The notes beneath the pieces were generated by a model. The model did not search any database. It was not told where the DNA came from and saw nothing but the letters and a program-made list of their open reading frames with translations. 64,000 nucleotides of DNA from Olsenella sp. An285. Its GTDB lineage: Bacteria; Actinomycetota; Coriobacteriia; Coriobacteriales; Atopobiaceae. The stretch is from positions 1 to 64,000 of the forward strand of contig NZ_NFIZ01000004.1 in assembly GCF_002159625.1 (NCBI RefSeq), in the 5' to 3' direction. Below, one piece after another: positions 10,237-37,885 of the stretch. Position 1 is the first letter of the stretch. The number at the start of each line of letters is the position of its first letter. The translations under genes and the position numbers were made by a program.

Positions 10237-10617
10237 ATGGCCGAGGTCAAGTTCTACCGCTGCAACCACTGCGGCAACGTCGTCGCCGTCGTGAGGGACG
10301 GGGGCGTCACCCCCAGCTGCTGCGGCGAGCCCATGGAGCTGCTCGTCGCCGGCTCCACGGACGCAGCCACCGAGAAGCACGTGCCCGTCGCCACCAGGGA
10401 CGGCAACCACATCGTGGTGCGCGTGGGCGCGGTCGACCACCCCATGGCGCCCGAGCACTACATCGAGTGGATCGCGCTTGCCACGGACGGCAAGCTCTGC
10501 CTCAAGCACCTCAAGCCGGGCGACGAGCCGGCCGCCAAGTTCGGCGCCTGCTGCGCCGAGGGCGGCACCGTGTACGCGTACTGCAACCTCCACGGCCTCT
10601 GGAAGGCCGACCTCTAG
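10237..10617 (+). CDS. dfx: Desulfoferrodoxin (superoxide reductase)
   Basis: Reduces superoxide to hydrogen peroxide without making oxygen, a typical defence of anaerobes. The 126-residue protein has the two-iron class layout: an N-terminal desulforedoxin centre with C9, C12 and the CC pair at 28-29, then the catalytic centre with its His residues (EKHVPVA, DHPMAPEHYIEW) and the terminal YCNLHGLW Cys/His pair. The ATG at 10237 follows a GAGAGAGGA ribosome site. A perfect 14-bp palindrome, GGGCGGCGCCGCCC, sits at 10204-10217 just before that site and could be an operator or a hairpin. The gene is monocistronic, with a strong terminator after it. Confidence 0.95.
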   Translation: MAEVKFYRCNHCGNVVAVVRDGGVTPSCCGEPMELLVAGSTDAATEKHVPVATRDGNHIVVRVGAVDHPMAPEHYIEWIALATDGKLCLKHLKPGDEPAAKFGACCAEGGTVYAYCNLHGLWKADL

Positions 10618-10666: not shown

Positions 10667-10691
10667 GGGCCCCGGGAGACCGGGGCCCTTT
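10667..10691 (+). terminator. Rho-independent terminator after dfx
   Basis: GGGCCCCGG and CCGGGGCCC form a perfect 9-bp stem around a GAGA tetraloop and are followed by TTT. The structure ends the superoxide reductase transcript. Confidence 0.85.
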
Positions 10692-10762: not shown

Positions 10763-12604
10763 ATGAGGATCGCAATCGCACAGACGAGCACGCGTGCCGG
10801 GGACTTCGAGGCCACGGCCGCGCACATGGTCGAGCTCTCCGCCCGTGCGGCGGAGCAAGGGGCCGACCTCCTCGTCTTCCCGGCGCCCGCGCTCTGCGGG
10901 ACGTCTCCCGTGGCGTACCCGGACCGGGAGGGCTACCTGCTCGATCTTGCCGAGTGTCTCGTGCGCCTGGCGGACGACCTTGCGTGTCCCTGCCTCGTGC
11001 CCGTGCTCACGGACCTCGACGGCGTGCCCCTGCCCGAGGCCATGCTCATCGCGGACGGAGACATCACGCCCGTGCGCCTCTCCACCTACATCGCCTCCAT
11101 GGCGCAGGGTGACGGTGAGGCGGACGCGCGAGCCCTTCCGGAGCTCGAGTTCGCGGGAGCGCGCCTGGGCGTCGCCTTCACGTACGACGATCTCGACGAT
11201 TACGACGACTACCAGTACGACGTCGACGTCATCCTCTTCCTCTCCGGCTACGGCTTTGCCACGGACGACCCGTCGAGCGCGCTCGGCAGCTCGCTCGCAG
11301 AGGGCCGCTACCTCGCGGACGCGGAGGCCACCGGGGCCTGGATCGTGGGCGTGGGTCCGCTCGGCTGCTACGAGTCCCAGGTCTTCTGCGGCTCGAGCTT
11401 CGTCCTCGCGCCGTGGGGCGAGCTCGCGGCGCAGGCGCCGAGCCTCGAGGAGGCTCTGCTCGTGTGCGACGTGGACCCCTCCGCCGAGGGCCCGCTTGCC
11501 GAGCCCCTCACGCCCGAGGTCTATGACGCGCCGCTCGCCACGTGGGGCGCCCTCGTGAGCGGCCTCTCCGGGGCGATCGAGCGCTCGGGGAGCGACGGTG
11601 CCTGCGTCCTTCTGGACGGGAGCCTGAGCTCGCTTCTCGTGGCGACGCTCGCCACGGACGCGCTCGGCCCCACGCGCGTTCACGCGCTCGTGGCGGCGGG
11701 CGAGGCGTCCCGCTCGGCAGCCGAGCAGTCGGTCCGCGCGCTGCGCCTGCCCGACGGCGCCGTGACGCGCCTCGACTCTCCCGGGGAGGGGGACGCCCAG
11801 CTCGCGCGCGACATCGCGCAGGTCCGCCTCTCCGAGCTCGCCCGGCAGACGGGCTCGCTCGCCCTGGGCTCCGACGACAAGACGACGCTCGCGCTCGAGC
11901 CCCCGCTCGGCGTCACGGCAGCGCGCCTCCAGCCCGTCGGCGACCTCTATCGCTCGGACGTCGTGGCCCTCGCGCACCTTCGCAACACCATCTCCCCCGT
12001 GATTCCCGCCTCCGCCTTCGCCGGTCTGGCAGCGCCCGACGTAGAGGGGCTTGCGGAGGCGTTCCCCTCGGTCGAGGGCAGGGTGGAGTTCGTCGACCTC
12101 GTGCTCTCGAGCAGGGTGGAGTGGGAGCTCCCGCTCACGGACATCGTCTCGGAGCGCGGCCACGCCGAGCTCGTCACCGCCATCATCGAGCGCTTGAGGG
12201 AGACGGCGCCCGCGCGCGCGGGTCGCGGCGCGGTGCTGGCCGTCTCCTCCAAGACGCTCGAGGAGGCGCGCGAGCCGTGGGGCCTCGCCTGGGCGGACCA
12301 CGTGCGCTCCCGGGACGAGCGAGCGGGAGAGGGCATCATGCGCGCGCTCGCCAGGGGCATCGGCAGCATGGGTGCCGAGAGCCAGGGGGACGAGAAGGAC
12401 GAGGAGCCCCGTGAGCCGACCGAGGCCGAGCAGCGGCGCGACATGAGCGATCTCCTGGGGTACCTACGGGACTTTCTCCCGGGCGGGGGCTTCTCGGGCA
12501 TGGGTCCCATGGGCCCGGCGGCTGCGGACGAGTCGCGGGGACGACACGACGGCGAGGACGGCCCCTCGCATCCCCTGTGGGACGGGCCCTTCTCCGAGAA
12601 CTGA
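10763..12604 (+). CDS. NAD synthetase-like pseudoenzyme (nitrilase plus synthetase folds, catalytic residues lost)
   Basis: A 613-residue protein with the architecture of glutamine-dependent NAD+ synthetase: nitrilase-like residues about 1-255 starting MRIAIAQTSTRAGDFEATA, then a synthetase-like domain. Both active sites look ruined. The nitrilase Glu is lost (FPAPALCG where active enzymes have FPE), the Lys position reads VRLSTY, and the nucleophile Cys position reads VAFTYDD instead of an ICED-type motif. The PP-loop SGGxDS of the synthetase is replaced by LDGSLSSL. The later GDLYRSDV segment is retained. Residues about 530-613 are an acidic, Gly/Met-rich tail. The frame is intact and codon use is normal, so this looks like a maintained pseudoenzyme, not decay. 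Family assignment is from recalled motifs; function unknown. Confidence 0.75.
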   Translation: MRIAIAQTSTRAGDFEATAAHMVELSARAAEQGADLLVFPAPALCGTSPVAYPDREGYLLDLAECLVRLADDLACPCLVPVLTDLDGVPLPEAMLIADGDITPVRLSTYIASMAQGDGEADARALPELEFAGARLGVAFTYDDLDDYDDYQYDVDVILFLSGYGFATDDPSSALGSSLAEGRYLADAEATGAWIVGVGPLGCYESQVFCGSSFVLAPWGELAAQAPSLEEALLVCDVDPSAEGPLAEPLTPEVYDAPLATWGALVSGLSGAIERSGSDGACVLLDGSLSSLLVATLATDALGPTRVHALVAAGEASRSAAEQSVRALRLPDGAVTRLDSPGEGDAQLARDIAQVRLSELARQTGSLALGSDDKTTLALEPPLGVTAARLQPVGDLYRSDVVALAHLRNTISPVIPASAFAGLAAPDVEGLAEAFPSVEGRVEFVDLVLSSRVEWELPLTDIVSERGHAELVTAIIERLRETAPARAGRGAVLAVSSKTLEEAREPWGLAWADHVRSRDERAGEGIMRALARGIGSMGAESQGDEKDEEPREPTEAEQRRDMSDLLGYLRDFLPGGGFSGMGPMGPAAADESRGRHDGEDGPSHPLWDGPFSEN

Positions 12605-12619: not shown

Positions 12620-12660
12620 TTGCCTTCTCCTCTGTCCGTGCTATGATGGAACGAACGTTC
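12620..12660 (+). promoter_or_regulatory. ruvCAB promoter with SOS (LexA) box
   Basis: A TTGCCT (12620-12625) and TATGAT (12642-12647) pair is separated by 16 bases. The sequence GAACGAACGTTC at 12649-12660 directly follows and fits the Gram-positive/actinobacterial LexA consensus GAAC-N4-GTTC. It sits about 57 bases before ruvC, in position to block initiation. SOS control of ruvCAB is the expected biology. Confidence 0.75.
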
Positions 12661-12716: not shown

Positions 12717-13223
12717 CTGGTCGTCCTTGGCATAGACCCGGGGCTGGCCCACACGGGCTGGGGCGTCGTCGAGACGCGCGGGTCCGTGTGCCGCGCGCGA
12801 GCGTACGGCTGCGTCACCACGCACGCGAGCGAGCCCATAGACATGCGCCTCGGAAGGATATACGCCGAGCTCAGGCGTGTCATAGAGCGCTATGGTCCCA
12901 CTGAGCTCGCCATCGAGAGCATCTACTTCGGCGAGAACACCAAGTCCGCCATCGCCACCGCCCAGGCCCGCGGCGCCGCCATCGTCGCGTGCTCCACGGC
13001 GGGGCTCTCGGTGGGGGAGTACACCCCCATGCAGATAAAGCAGGCGGTGGTGGGCACCGGTGCGGCTGACAAGCGCCAGGTCATCTATATGGTGAGGAGC
13101 GTTCTCGCCCTCGACCACGACCCGCGACCCGATCACGCGGCGGATGCCCTGGCCGCGGCGGTCTGCCACGCCAACGTAACCAGAACCAAGAGCCTCGAGG
13201 AGGCAAGGAGGGTCCTCACGTGA
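12717..13223 (+). CDS. ruvC: Holliday junction resolvase RuvC (apparent CTG start)
   Basis: Endonuclease that cuts Holliday junctions with RuvAB. The 168-residue product has Asp7 in VLGIDPGL, the IESIYFGEN glutamate, and the terminal DHAADA acidic pair. The in-frame stop at 12708 leaves no ATG, GTG or TTG before the catalytic Asp. The only good start is CTG at 12717, six bases beyond a perfect GGGGAGGTGA ribosome site. The next conventional start, GTG at 12786, would remove the catalytic Asp7. First gene of ruvCAB; the stop overlaps ruvA by four bases. Confidence 0.93.
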   Translation: MVVLGIDPGLAHTGWGVVETRGSVCRARAYGCVTTHASEPIDMRLGRIYAELRRVIERYGPTELAIESIYFGENTKSAIATAQARGAAIVACSTAGLSVGEYTPMQIKQAVVGTGAADKRQVIYMVRSVLALDHDPRPDHAADALAAAVCHANVTRTKSLEEARRVLT

Positions 13224-13858
13224 TAGTTCAGCTCACCGGCACGCTGTTGGAGGTGCTCCCCAGTCGCATAGTGCTGGACGTGGGGGGAGTGGGCTACGAG
13301 CTCGGCGTCTCGTCCACCACGGCCGCGGCGCTCCCGCACGCGGGAGAGGCGGGCGTGACCGTGCTCGCCCGTATGATCGTGCGCGAGGACGCGATGGAGC
13401 TCTACGGCTTTGCCACGCGCGACGAGCGCGCCCTCTTCGACCAGCTTCGCGCCATATCCGGCGTGGGGCCGCGCCTTGCGCTCGCCGTCCTCTCCACGTT
13501 CACCCCCGCCGCGCTCGCCCAGATCGTGACCGCGCAGGACGCCTCACGCATGGCGCAGGTCCCCGGGGTGGGCCGCAAGAAGGCGAGCCGCCTCATCGTT
13601 GAGCTCTCGGACGTCTTCTCAAAGAACGCTGAGCTCAGAGGTCTCGTGGGGCTCTCCGAGCCCGGTGCGGCGTCGCTTCCCCTCTCCCAGGCCGCCGCAA
13701 GTGCGGGCGTGGAGGCGGACGCGACGGAGGCGCTTCTTTCCATGGGGTTCACCTCGCAGGAGGCCGAGCTCGCCCTCGAGGGCCATGCGGAGGCCGGTGC
13801 CAACACCATCGAGCAGGTGCTCGCCTACGCGCTGCGCCGCCTGGGGAGTGGTAGGTGA
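13220..13858 (+). CDS. ruvA: Holliday junction branch migration protein RuvA
   Basis: DNA-binding subunit of the RuvAB branch-migration motor, 212 residues. It begins with the conserved OB-fold sequence [20 protein letters not shown]. The central helix-hairpin-helix motifs are visible ([30 protein letters not shown]), and a C-terminal three-helix domain ([17 protein letters not shown]) would contact RuvB. It starts at the GTG that overlaps the ruvC stop and ends overlapping ruvB, so the three genes are coupled. Confidence 0.96.
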
Positions 13859-14913
13859 TGTGGGAGGCGAGCGAGAAGGACCTCTTTGCCGGAGCCGCGG
13901 CGCCGCGACCCTCCGGGCCGCGCGACGTCACGGGCGAGCTCACGGCGGACGACCTTGACCAGGACCGCACGCTCCGCCCGCGCACCCTCGACGAGTACAT
14001 CGGCCAGGAGCGCGTGCGCGAGAACCTTCGCGTGCTCATCCAGGCGGCGCGCGACCGCGGGGAGTCGCTCGACCACGTGATCTTCTCGGGCCCCCCGGGG
14101 CTGGGCAAGACCACGCTCGCGGGCATCGTGGCAAACGAGATGGGCGCCAAGATGCACACCACCTCGGGCCCCGCCATCGAGCGCGCGGGGGACCTCGCCG
14201 CCATCCTCACCAACCTCGAGCCCGGTGACGTCCTCTTCGTGGACGAGATACACCGTCTCAACCACCAGATCGAGGAGGTCCTGTACCCGGCGATGGAGGA
14301 CTTCTTCCTCGACATCGTCATTGGCAAGGGGCCGGCCGCGCGCTCCATCAGGATCGACGTCCCGCACTTCACCCTCGTGGGCGCCACCACGCGCACGGGC
14401 CTGCTCACGGGCCCGCTGCGCGACCGCTTTGGCATCTCGTACCGCCTCGACTACTACACTACCTCCGAGCTCGCCGTCATCGTCACGCGCTCCGCCACCA
14501 TCCTTGGCGTGGACATAGACGCCCAGGGCGCGGCGGAGATCGCCTCGCGCTCGCGCGGCACGCCGCGCCTCGCCAACCGCCTTCTCAAGCGCGTGCGCGA
14601 CTACGCGCAGGTCAAGCGCGAGGGCAGCATCACCTGGGACGTTGCGGCGGAGGCGCTCGAGTTCTTCGAGATTGACGCCCTCGGCCTCGACACCATGGAC
14701 GTGAGGATACTCACCGCGCTCTGCCAGACGTTCCGCGGGCGCCCCGTGGGGCTCACCACCGTTGCGAGCGCCGTCTCTGAGGACCCCTCGACGCTCGAGG
14801 ACGTCTACGAGCCCTACCTCCTGCAGCGCGGTCTCATCGTGCGCACGCCGCAGGGCAGGCAGGCCACGCTCGCCGCCTTCGATCACCTTGGGATCGAGCC
14901 CCCCTCCCAGTAG
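13858..14913 (+). CDS. ruvB: Holliday junction branch migration helicase RuvB
   Basis: AAA+ motor of the RuvAB complex, 351 residues from the ATG at 13858; the GTG one codon earlier is an alternative. Walker A is [11 protein letters not shown], Walker B is [10 protein letters not shown], sensor 1 is GATTRTG, and the arginine-finger region is GPLRDRFGI. The C-terminal winged helix is present ([10 protein letters not shown]). The ATG overlaps the ruvA TGA. The second residues carry the GAGAAGGAC motif in frame. Last gene of the operon, followed by a terminator. Confidence 0.97.
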
Positions 14914-35769: not shown

Positions 35770-35870
35770 GCCCCCTCCCGCCAATGTACAGAAAAGTCGG
35801 ACTTTCCCGCGCGATTTCCCTGATGGGCGCCGGGGAAGTCCGACTTTTCTGTACATTGGCGGGAGGGGGC
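35770..35870. repeat. Perfect 35-bp inverted repeat between convergent genes (element F)
   Basis: Arms 35770-35804 and 35836-35870 are exact complements and contain the CAATGTACAGAAA core of element C. The spacer is 31 bases. The right arm ends eight bases from the P-type ATPase stop. A GAGAAGAAC motif at 35761-35769 directly precedes the left arm. It is placed to act as a bidirectional terminator, but no T-run follows either arm. Confidence 0.9.
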
Positions 35871-37789: not shown

Positions 37790-37810
37790 GACGGCTCCTC
37801 TGCAAATTGG

Positions 37811-37885
37811 GTCTGCAAATTGGGGACAGTCCCCATTTCACATAAAACTTTTCTGCAAATTGGGGACTGTCCCCAATTTGCAGAC
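37811..37885. repeat. Perfect 24-bp inverted repeat abutting the HMA stop (element G)
   Basis: Arms 37811-37834 and 37862-37885 are exact complements with the self-complementary core GGGGACNGTCCCC. The outer base touches the TAG of the HMA gene at 37886. An extra direct copy of TGCAAATTGG lies just before at 37801 and another in the spacer. It sits between HMA and ATPase genes of one apparent operon. Confidence 0.9.

Follow-up and report, generated by a model that had tools for sequence, protein, structure and literature searches.

The gene considered here lies in a stretch of 64,000 nucleotides from Olsenella sp. An285 (hereafter the window), with a desulfoferrodoxin gene on its upstream side and the recombination genes ruvC, ruvA and ruvB on its downstream side (Table 1). 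Its reading frame is open across 613 codons, from an ATG at 10763 to a TGA at 12604, just as a preliminary description of the window had reported. The product exceeds the gathering scores of the Pfam families CN_hydrolase (51.3 bits, cut-off 23.2) and NAD_synthase (23.0 bits, cut-off 21), and its best sequence relative in the PDB is 5kha (1.7e-17). An AlphaFold model that drew on 37 members of the family (mean pLDDT 84.2, confident for most of residues 1-500 and below 50 for residues 538-549 and 572-613) finds its best fold match in the Streptomyces NAD+ synthetase 3n05, with Z 31.5 and an rmsd of 3.5 over 468 aligned residues. Given the Pfam scores, the sequence match to 5kha and the extent of this fold match, membership in the NAD synthetase family is firm, which upholds a relationship that the preliminary description had put forward for checking by structure prediction and alignment, and the protein is predicted to keep the two-domain NadE fold. 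It scores 83.7 bits with the NF010588 model of glutamine-hydrolysing NAD+ synthase, below the curated cut-off of 479, and 13.5 bits with the model of the M. tuberculosis-type NadE (PRK02628 / NF002730).

Table 1. Features at and around the NadE-like gene, in window coordinates
Feature	Position	Strand	Basis or remark
Desulfoferrodoxin gene, upstream neighbour	10249..10617	+	
Intrinsic-terminator-like hairpin between the desulfoferrodoxin and NadE-like genes	10667..10688	+	
Pseudo-NAD-synthetase (putatively double-dead NadE homologue), 613 aa	10763..12604	+	ORF, Pfam, PDB match, predicted model
Nitrilase-fold glutaminase-like domain, about residues 1-250	10763..11512	+	Triad replaced by A41, S107, T140
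Synthetase-like domain, about residues 251-530	11513..12352	+	SGGxDS reads DGSLSS, GNKSE reads DDKTT, K373 retained
Former PP-loop LDGSLSSL	11612..11635	+	Alignment with canonical NadE
C-terminal extension, residues 537-613 (acidic linker, predicted helix 554-574, predicted-disordered linker)	12371..12601	+	
Terminal peptide GPFSEN	12584..12601	+	F, S and N identical in 51/51 f1 and f3 proteins
Sigma-70-like promoter 5' of ruvC	12620..12647	+	
LexA/SOS-box-like GAACGAACGTTC 5' of ruvC	12649..12660	+	
ruvC, ruvA, ruvB, apparently a separate unit	12720..14913	+	ruvC possibly starting three bases earlier

Apparent loss of both active sites

The nitrilase-type glutaminase triad of M. tuberculosis NadE consists of Cys176, Glu52 and Lys121, according to the accessible text of PMC6946656. 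In an alignment of 84 proteins, whose references include three canonical NadE proteins of the same class, the Glu, Lys and Cys columns of these three are occupied in the window protein by A41, S107 and T140, which lie in the strings FPAPAL (residues 39-44), VRLSTY (104-109) and FTYDD (139-143). Likewise, D285-S290 (DGSLSS, within LDGSLSSL at 284-291) fills the column of the synthetase motif SGGxDS. None of the 44 aligned proteins from family f1 (Atopobiaceae as delimited in the genome collection) has E, K or C in the triad columns, and SGGxDS, present in all three outgroup proteins, is found in 0/44 f1 and 0/7 f3 proteins, so that it is missing from 51/51. The loss of both active sites claimed in the preliminary description is borne out and extends to relatives, and we judge from these motifs that the window protein is a double pseudoenzyme. 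These losses, fixed alike in both families, exceed what chance would give.

The idea that the catalytic residues are merely shifted can be rejected for the window protein. Its only lysines are at 373, 497 and 545, which leaves the glutaminase half without any, and none of its cysteines (45, 65, 75, 77, 202, 209, 235 and 281) falls within five residues of T140; a Glu within two residues of its column is found in 0/44 f1 proteins. Among other f1 members, a Lys lies no more than six residues from its column in 7/44 and a Cys no more than five in 3/44. Side-family and f3 proteins show a gap at the Cys column, so that their loss of Cys depends on how the alignment is drawn; 3/23 f6, 1/1 f29 and 1/7 f3 proteins have a Cys within five residues of that column, and none of the side-family and f3 proteins has a Glu within two residues of the Glu column. 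Residues that are invariant in 37 f1 proteins are Q7, G210, S212, D372-K373-T374, D394, Y396 and R397. Of these, K373 (the lysine of the GNKSE segment) is kept in all 51 aligned f1 and f3 proteins, and its retention may be structural or may be a remnant of ligand binding.

Distribution and selection

Our scan covered 296 genomes of the class, and a separate collection supplied 36 named relatives of the locus. The dead protein is present in 78 of the 79 f1 genomes, a family that here also includes Kribbibacterium (given a separate family at NCBI), and in 52/52 of the f3 genomes listed, and thus in 130/131 of the two families together. We infer that f3 corresponds to Coriobacteriaceae (Collinsella and kin) and f2 to Eggerthellaceae. 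One copy, in G241, gave a weak match in the scan and was confirmed by profile search and by position. The frame is open in 36/36 named relatives, on which ground we reject a sequencing error or a local pseudogene. A broken copy is found in the f1 genome G287 (C32:712-2521), where the gene is split over two frames with an internal TGA. The only f1 genome in which the protein is missing is G056, a single contig in which a match to ruvC is absent too; the locus was not found in the 240 kb examined, and either a deletion across both genes or an assembly fault would account for the absence.

Sequence change was assessed on 33 proteins, namely the window protein together with those of 32 named relatives (the full 36 less L032, L036, L042 and L044), with dN/dS taken from the 16 closest of 528 pairs. 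Whole-protein values in these pairs are 0.15-0.39; the glutaminase-like half taken alone gives 0.08-0.25 and the synthetase-like half 0.12-0.58, and the former is the lower in 15 of the 16. The half that was first to die is therefore now the better conserved one. For ruvA and ruvB of one pair the values are 0.03-0.04, and local alignments of the window protein's body to seven f3 members reach 27-31% identity. The dead protein is under purifying selection and is nonetheless evolving fast.

A constant peptide at the end of a variable tail

The preliminary description had also noted an added acidic tail. An extension is indeed present, but it is acidic only in part (residues 537-613 include 19 D/E, 7 K/R, 13 G and 8 P), and what is conserved of it is the terminal FSEN. 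Three residues, N(-1), S(-3) and F(-4) relative to the C-terminal end, are shared by 44/44 f1 proteins, by 7/7 f3 proteins (drawn from 7 of the 52 f3 genomes) and by the f5 protein, and they are the only invariant positions among the last 20. The two linkers before this peptide have a mean identity to the window protein of 16% and 32% within f1, and AlphaFold predicts the tail to be disordered, with pLDDT mostly below 40. An invariant terminal peptide behind a variable linker, which is what we would look for in an adaptor that docks by its tail, is thus what the dead protein has. An extreme case is the G241 protein (L228:5142-8396), a 1085-aa frame that ends NPFSIN just before ruvC and whose body, with a long acidic stretch, is nearly unrecognisable, its only match to the window protein being one of E 2e-6 over 39 residues.

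Similar ends occur beyond the two families. The f5 protein of G226, in which the synthetase motif is intact, ends IFSKN, and all 21 aligned f6 proteins whose C-terminus is intact have Asn as the last residue (e.g. WDFLAN), two other f6 proteins being cut by a contig end or by unread bases. Other ends are seen in f4, f2 (G146), f29 and the outgroup, and likewise in the proteins read from f26, f27 and f28. A tail is also present in relatives, G226 and G288 among them, in which no NadE other than the tailed protein was found. The f6 ends resemble FSxN without being identical to it, and the two tails may be one invention, although the lack of such an end in the sister family f26 keeps us from assigning them to one.

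The genome of the window (95.1% complete) was searched for codon patterns encoding F-S-x-N followed by a stop, allowing both Ser codon groups and TGG as the last codon. The pattern occurs at 14 places, three of which are true stops: one ends the dead NadE gene, one ends a frame of 33 aa, and the third belongs to a frame of 504 aa. By eye we judged this last frame spurious, given its antisense-like composition in G+C-rich DNA. We saw no other real gene ending in F-S-x-N in this genome, and a docking site shared with other proteins is therefore not indicated.

Gene neighbourhood

The surroundings of the gene are well conserved. A desulfoferrodoxin gene lies upstream in 35/36 named relatives (the sequence of the remaining one, L012, begins 100 bases before the gene), ruvA and ruvB lie downstream in 35/36 (L036 has neither in 6 kb), and both arrangements hold at 7/7 f3 loci; these counts rest on ruvA and ruvB, with ruvC confirmed for the window. 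No ruvA or ruvB is found near eight f6 loci or near the f5 gene of G226. At L086 and L172 (f5, G226), the copy whose synthetase motif is intact also has a desulfoferrodoxin gene ahead of it, and this pairing may thus predate the loss of both sites. Among three f6 loci no partner gene common to all was found: a metallo-beta-lactamase fold protein and an EamA transporter are each present in two of the three, and RelA/SpoT, RecJ-helicase, DeoC, histidine kinase, SPOUT methyltransferase and DUF2344 genes in one locus each.

The GAACGAACGTTC box, which we take to fit the Gram-positive LexA consensus, occurs once on the plus strand of the window. Across the window and the 36 named relatives it is exact in 34/37 loci, relaxed in two and absent from L036; it is exact in 7/7 f3 loci, and in seven further loci (f5 L086 and six of f1) it is exact in four, relaxed in two and missing from L086. 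Because this SOS-like box and a promoter-like sequence directly follow the stop codon of the dead NadE gene, ruvCAB seem to form a separate unit, and their position next to it says little about function. The seeming start of ruvC is a CTG at window position 12717 (CTGGTCGTCCTTGGC), as it is in the nearest relative, L009; three other relatives caught by the pattern start with ATG (two) or GTG (one). Elsewhere in the window, at 35781-35859 and 37796-37863, there is a dispersed palindromic repeat around CTGCAAATTGGGGACAGTCCCCAATTTGCAG, with more copies on other contigs, that looks like a REP-type element.

Steps of decay in living relatives

By their motifs, the relatives record what would be a stepwise decay, from canonical enzymes to proteins with a dead glutaminase site and then to proteins with both sites dead. 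Beyond the order, 3/3 outgroup proteins are canonical, with E, K, C and SGGxDS. In the side families the triad Glu and Lys are gone and SGGxDS is intact in 30/30 proteins (four from f4, 23 from f6 and one each from f5, f2 and f29, the f5 and f2 members being those of G226 and G146), and in f1 and f3 both the glutaminase and the synthetase motifs are lost. Scores with the NCBIfam NAD+ synthase model (cut-off 479) follow the same order: 725-747 for three outgroup proteins, 388-419 for three intermediates and 84-158 for four dead ones. In the f2 rows examined, most matching frames are only about 270-400 aa long and span the synthetase part alone (roughly profile positions 263-518), and the dead glutaminase domain seems to have been deleted there. 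Some f2 genera carry other NadE forms, and in one f2 genome, G058, an M. tuberculosis-type NadE is present and the old copy was not found.

The synthetase site was apparently lost a second time within f6. The protein of G448 lacks SGGxDS and GNKSE (the segments read KGDLASS and VDKTAL), ends WTFMSN and nests inside f6 with a fork support of 100 in a quick tree (SH-aLRT) that included 18 of the 44 f1 proteins. No other NadE was found in its assembly, which is 72% complete; its genus-mate G447 has a fragment that resembles the M. tuberculosis-type NadE by sequence, and in G451 (f6, 82% complete) such a NadE was likewise recognised by sequence and the tail protein was not found. In G477 (f5), both sites are dead, the protein ends LFSKN, and a separate short NadE is the only NadE found. 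The dead-copy gene of G477 spans two contigs, and the assemblies of both G448 and G477 are incomplete. Since the quick tree places G477 between f1+f3 and the f5 protein of G226, we count two independent losses of the synthetase site and regard a third as possible.

A complete NAD synthetase encoded elsewhere

The preliminary description had suggested looking for a second, complete nadE, and one exists: a single M. tuberculosis-type NadE is encoded at C29:44034-45977 of the same genome, with 875 bits against a cut-off of 473. When this copy and 40 orthologues taken elsewhere in f1 and f3 were examined at 14 catalytic or motif positions, all were intact in 41/41. By hand count, the M. tuberculosis-type NadE is over the cut-off in 131 of the 296 genomes (78 of f1, 52 of f3 and one of f2, G058), with G287 as the only f1 genome lacking a match, and 129 of these 131 also hold the dead protein, the exceptions being G056 and G058. 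Within f1 the mean pairwise tree distance is 1.69 for the dead protein against 0.45 for the true NadE, and the dead protein thus evolves faster than its active counterpart.

Proposed history and alternative roles

The gene has been conserved intact, an active enzyme has replaced its product, the terminal peptide is invariant and catalysis was lost more than once; the simplest account of all this would be that the ancestral NadE already had another task when it gave up its catalytic one. Our best guess for that task is docking through F-S-x-N. We therefore tentatively favour, at slightly less than an even chance, the view that the protein is a former glutamine-dependent NAD synthetase which was kept for another task, F-S-x-N docking, after a second NadE took over catalysis. 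A more specific version seems possible to us, if somewhat doubtful: the ancestral NadE would have been bifunctional by virtue of its C-terminal docking peptide, catalysis would have been dropped at least twice independently upon the arrival of other NAD synthetases, and the docking that was kept would link the scaffold to a conserved partner by way of a new F-S-x-N motif at the C-terminus. To judge from living relatives, the glutaminase site would have been lost first, the C-terminal tail would then have been gained, another NadE would have arrived and taken over catalysis, and the synthetase site would have decayed while the function of the tail was retained. The folded body would now act as a non-catalytic scaffold that may form oligomers and may have kept the ability to bind one of the enzyme's ligands, and the free terminal peptide would dock on a conserved partner protein, much as SSB and FtsZ tails do. 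No binding partner was found.

The preliminary description had envisaged either a regulator of the true NadE or a new role. The new role is well supported by a protein that is intact, conserved in two families, under selection and accompanied in the genome by a complete NadE, whereas regulation of NadE is possible with nothing specific pointing to it. A regulatory subunit that binds the true NadE and tunes its activity would have precedents in the dead paralogues of trypanosomes (accessible text of PMC5201418 and PMC3663545) and would fit the near-perfect co-occurrence of the two genes, but redundancy would also give that co-occurrence. Similarly, the partial distance correlation of the dead protein with NadE is positive (r 0.425 over all 41 genomes, 0.303 within f1), but that with ruvA matches or exceeds it (0.420 and 0.498), and the test is uninformative about co-evolution with NadE. 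Given also that the tail is found where the protein is the only NadE found and that a dead copy exists alongside a short NadE in G477, we consider such a subunit unlikely. Quite improbable, in our estimate, is a ligand sensor in which glutamine, NaAD, NAD or ATP would bind at the old sites and remain unconverted, with the tail relaying the signal; the constancy of K373 in both families, that of D394, Y396 and R397 in 37/37 f1 proteins and the stronger constraint on the glutaminase-like half speak for it, and the altered PP-loop, GNKSE and YKRR segments speak against it.

The remaining possibilities are more remote. A new catalytic activity through other residues could draw on the invariant positions of the f1 proteins, but these include no obvious new nucleophile, and the body diverges while the tip stays constant, so we give this idea little credence. 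Cooperation with RuvCAB in DNA repair appears very improbable. The position of the gene ahead of ruvA and ruvB and the joint absence of matches to the dead protein and ruvC in G056 agree with it, and the adjacency noted in the preliminary description stands. The functional link finds little support beyond position, for ruvC has an SOS-type promoter of its own right after the stop codon, the ruvA and ruvB genes are missing near L036, the eight f6 loci and the f5 gene of G226, and the partial distance correlation with ruvC is 0.09 and -0.04. Least credible of all is a functionless relic in slow decay, despite the fast evolution of the protein, its dispensability for NAD synthesis next to an intact NadE and the broken copy in G287, because open frames in every named relative, dN/dS far below 1, an invariant C-terminus and near-universal presence in f1 and f3 all argue for a function.

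If the favoured history of a displaced enzyme kept for docking is true, a doubly inactivated NAD synthetase has been conserved across families rather than arising sporadically, and every stage, from the dead glutaminase through the gain of the tail and the displacement of the enzyme to the dead synthetase, is represented by an extant relative. This series makes it testable whether a moonlighting task precedes catalytic loss. On a practical level, annotation by similarity could count the dead gene as a NAD synthetase of gut bacteria when the active sites sit in another gene. Our findings suggest that a former enzyme of gut bacteria now serves a different, non-catalytic job. Among the literature matches listed, a set that largely excludes subscription papers, there is no report of an inactive NAD synthetase in these bacteria, and the accessible main text of a 2012 survey of the family (PMC3376133) mentions neither Collinsella, Atopobium, Eggerthella or Slackia nor the word 'inactive'.

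Comparison with known systems

Glutamine-dependent NAD+ synthetases (PRK13981 / NF010588; PDB 3n05, 5kha, 4f4h) share with the window protein the order of domains, the length of the body and, as predicted, the fold (Z 25.4-31.5), and the sequence match to them is weak but clear. In contrast to these enzymes, the window protein has neither the triad nor SGGxDS, carries an extra tail ending FSEN and falls far short of the family cut-off. The M. tuberculosis-type NadE is related as a two-domain family in the wide sense; the copy in this genome is complete at the positions checked and is encoded elsewhere, and the window protein barely registers with its model. In SSB and FtsZ, a globular body is followed by a variable disordered linker and a conserved C-terminal docking peptide, and the dead NadE homologue has the same layout. 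This likeness is an analogy of arrangement, and we know of no sequence relation between its tail and those of SSB or FtsZ. Finally, the accessible text of PMC5201418 and PMC3663545 describes the trypanosome AdoMetDC prozyme and deoxyhypusine synthase, in which dead paralogues activate their enzymes. These systems likewise place an inactive relative beside an active enzyme, but there the dead protein forms a heteromer with its close paralogue, whereas the dead NadE homologue looks like an older enzyme that has been displaced.
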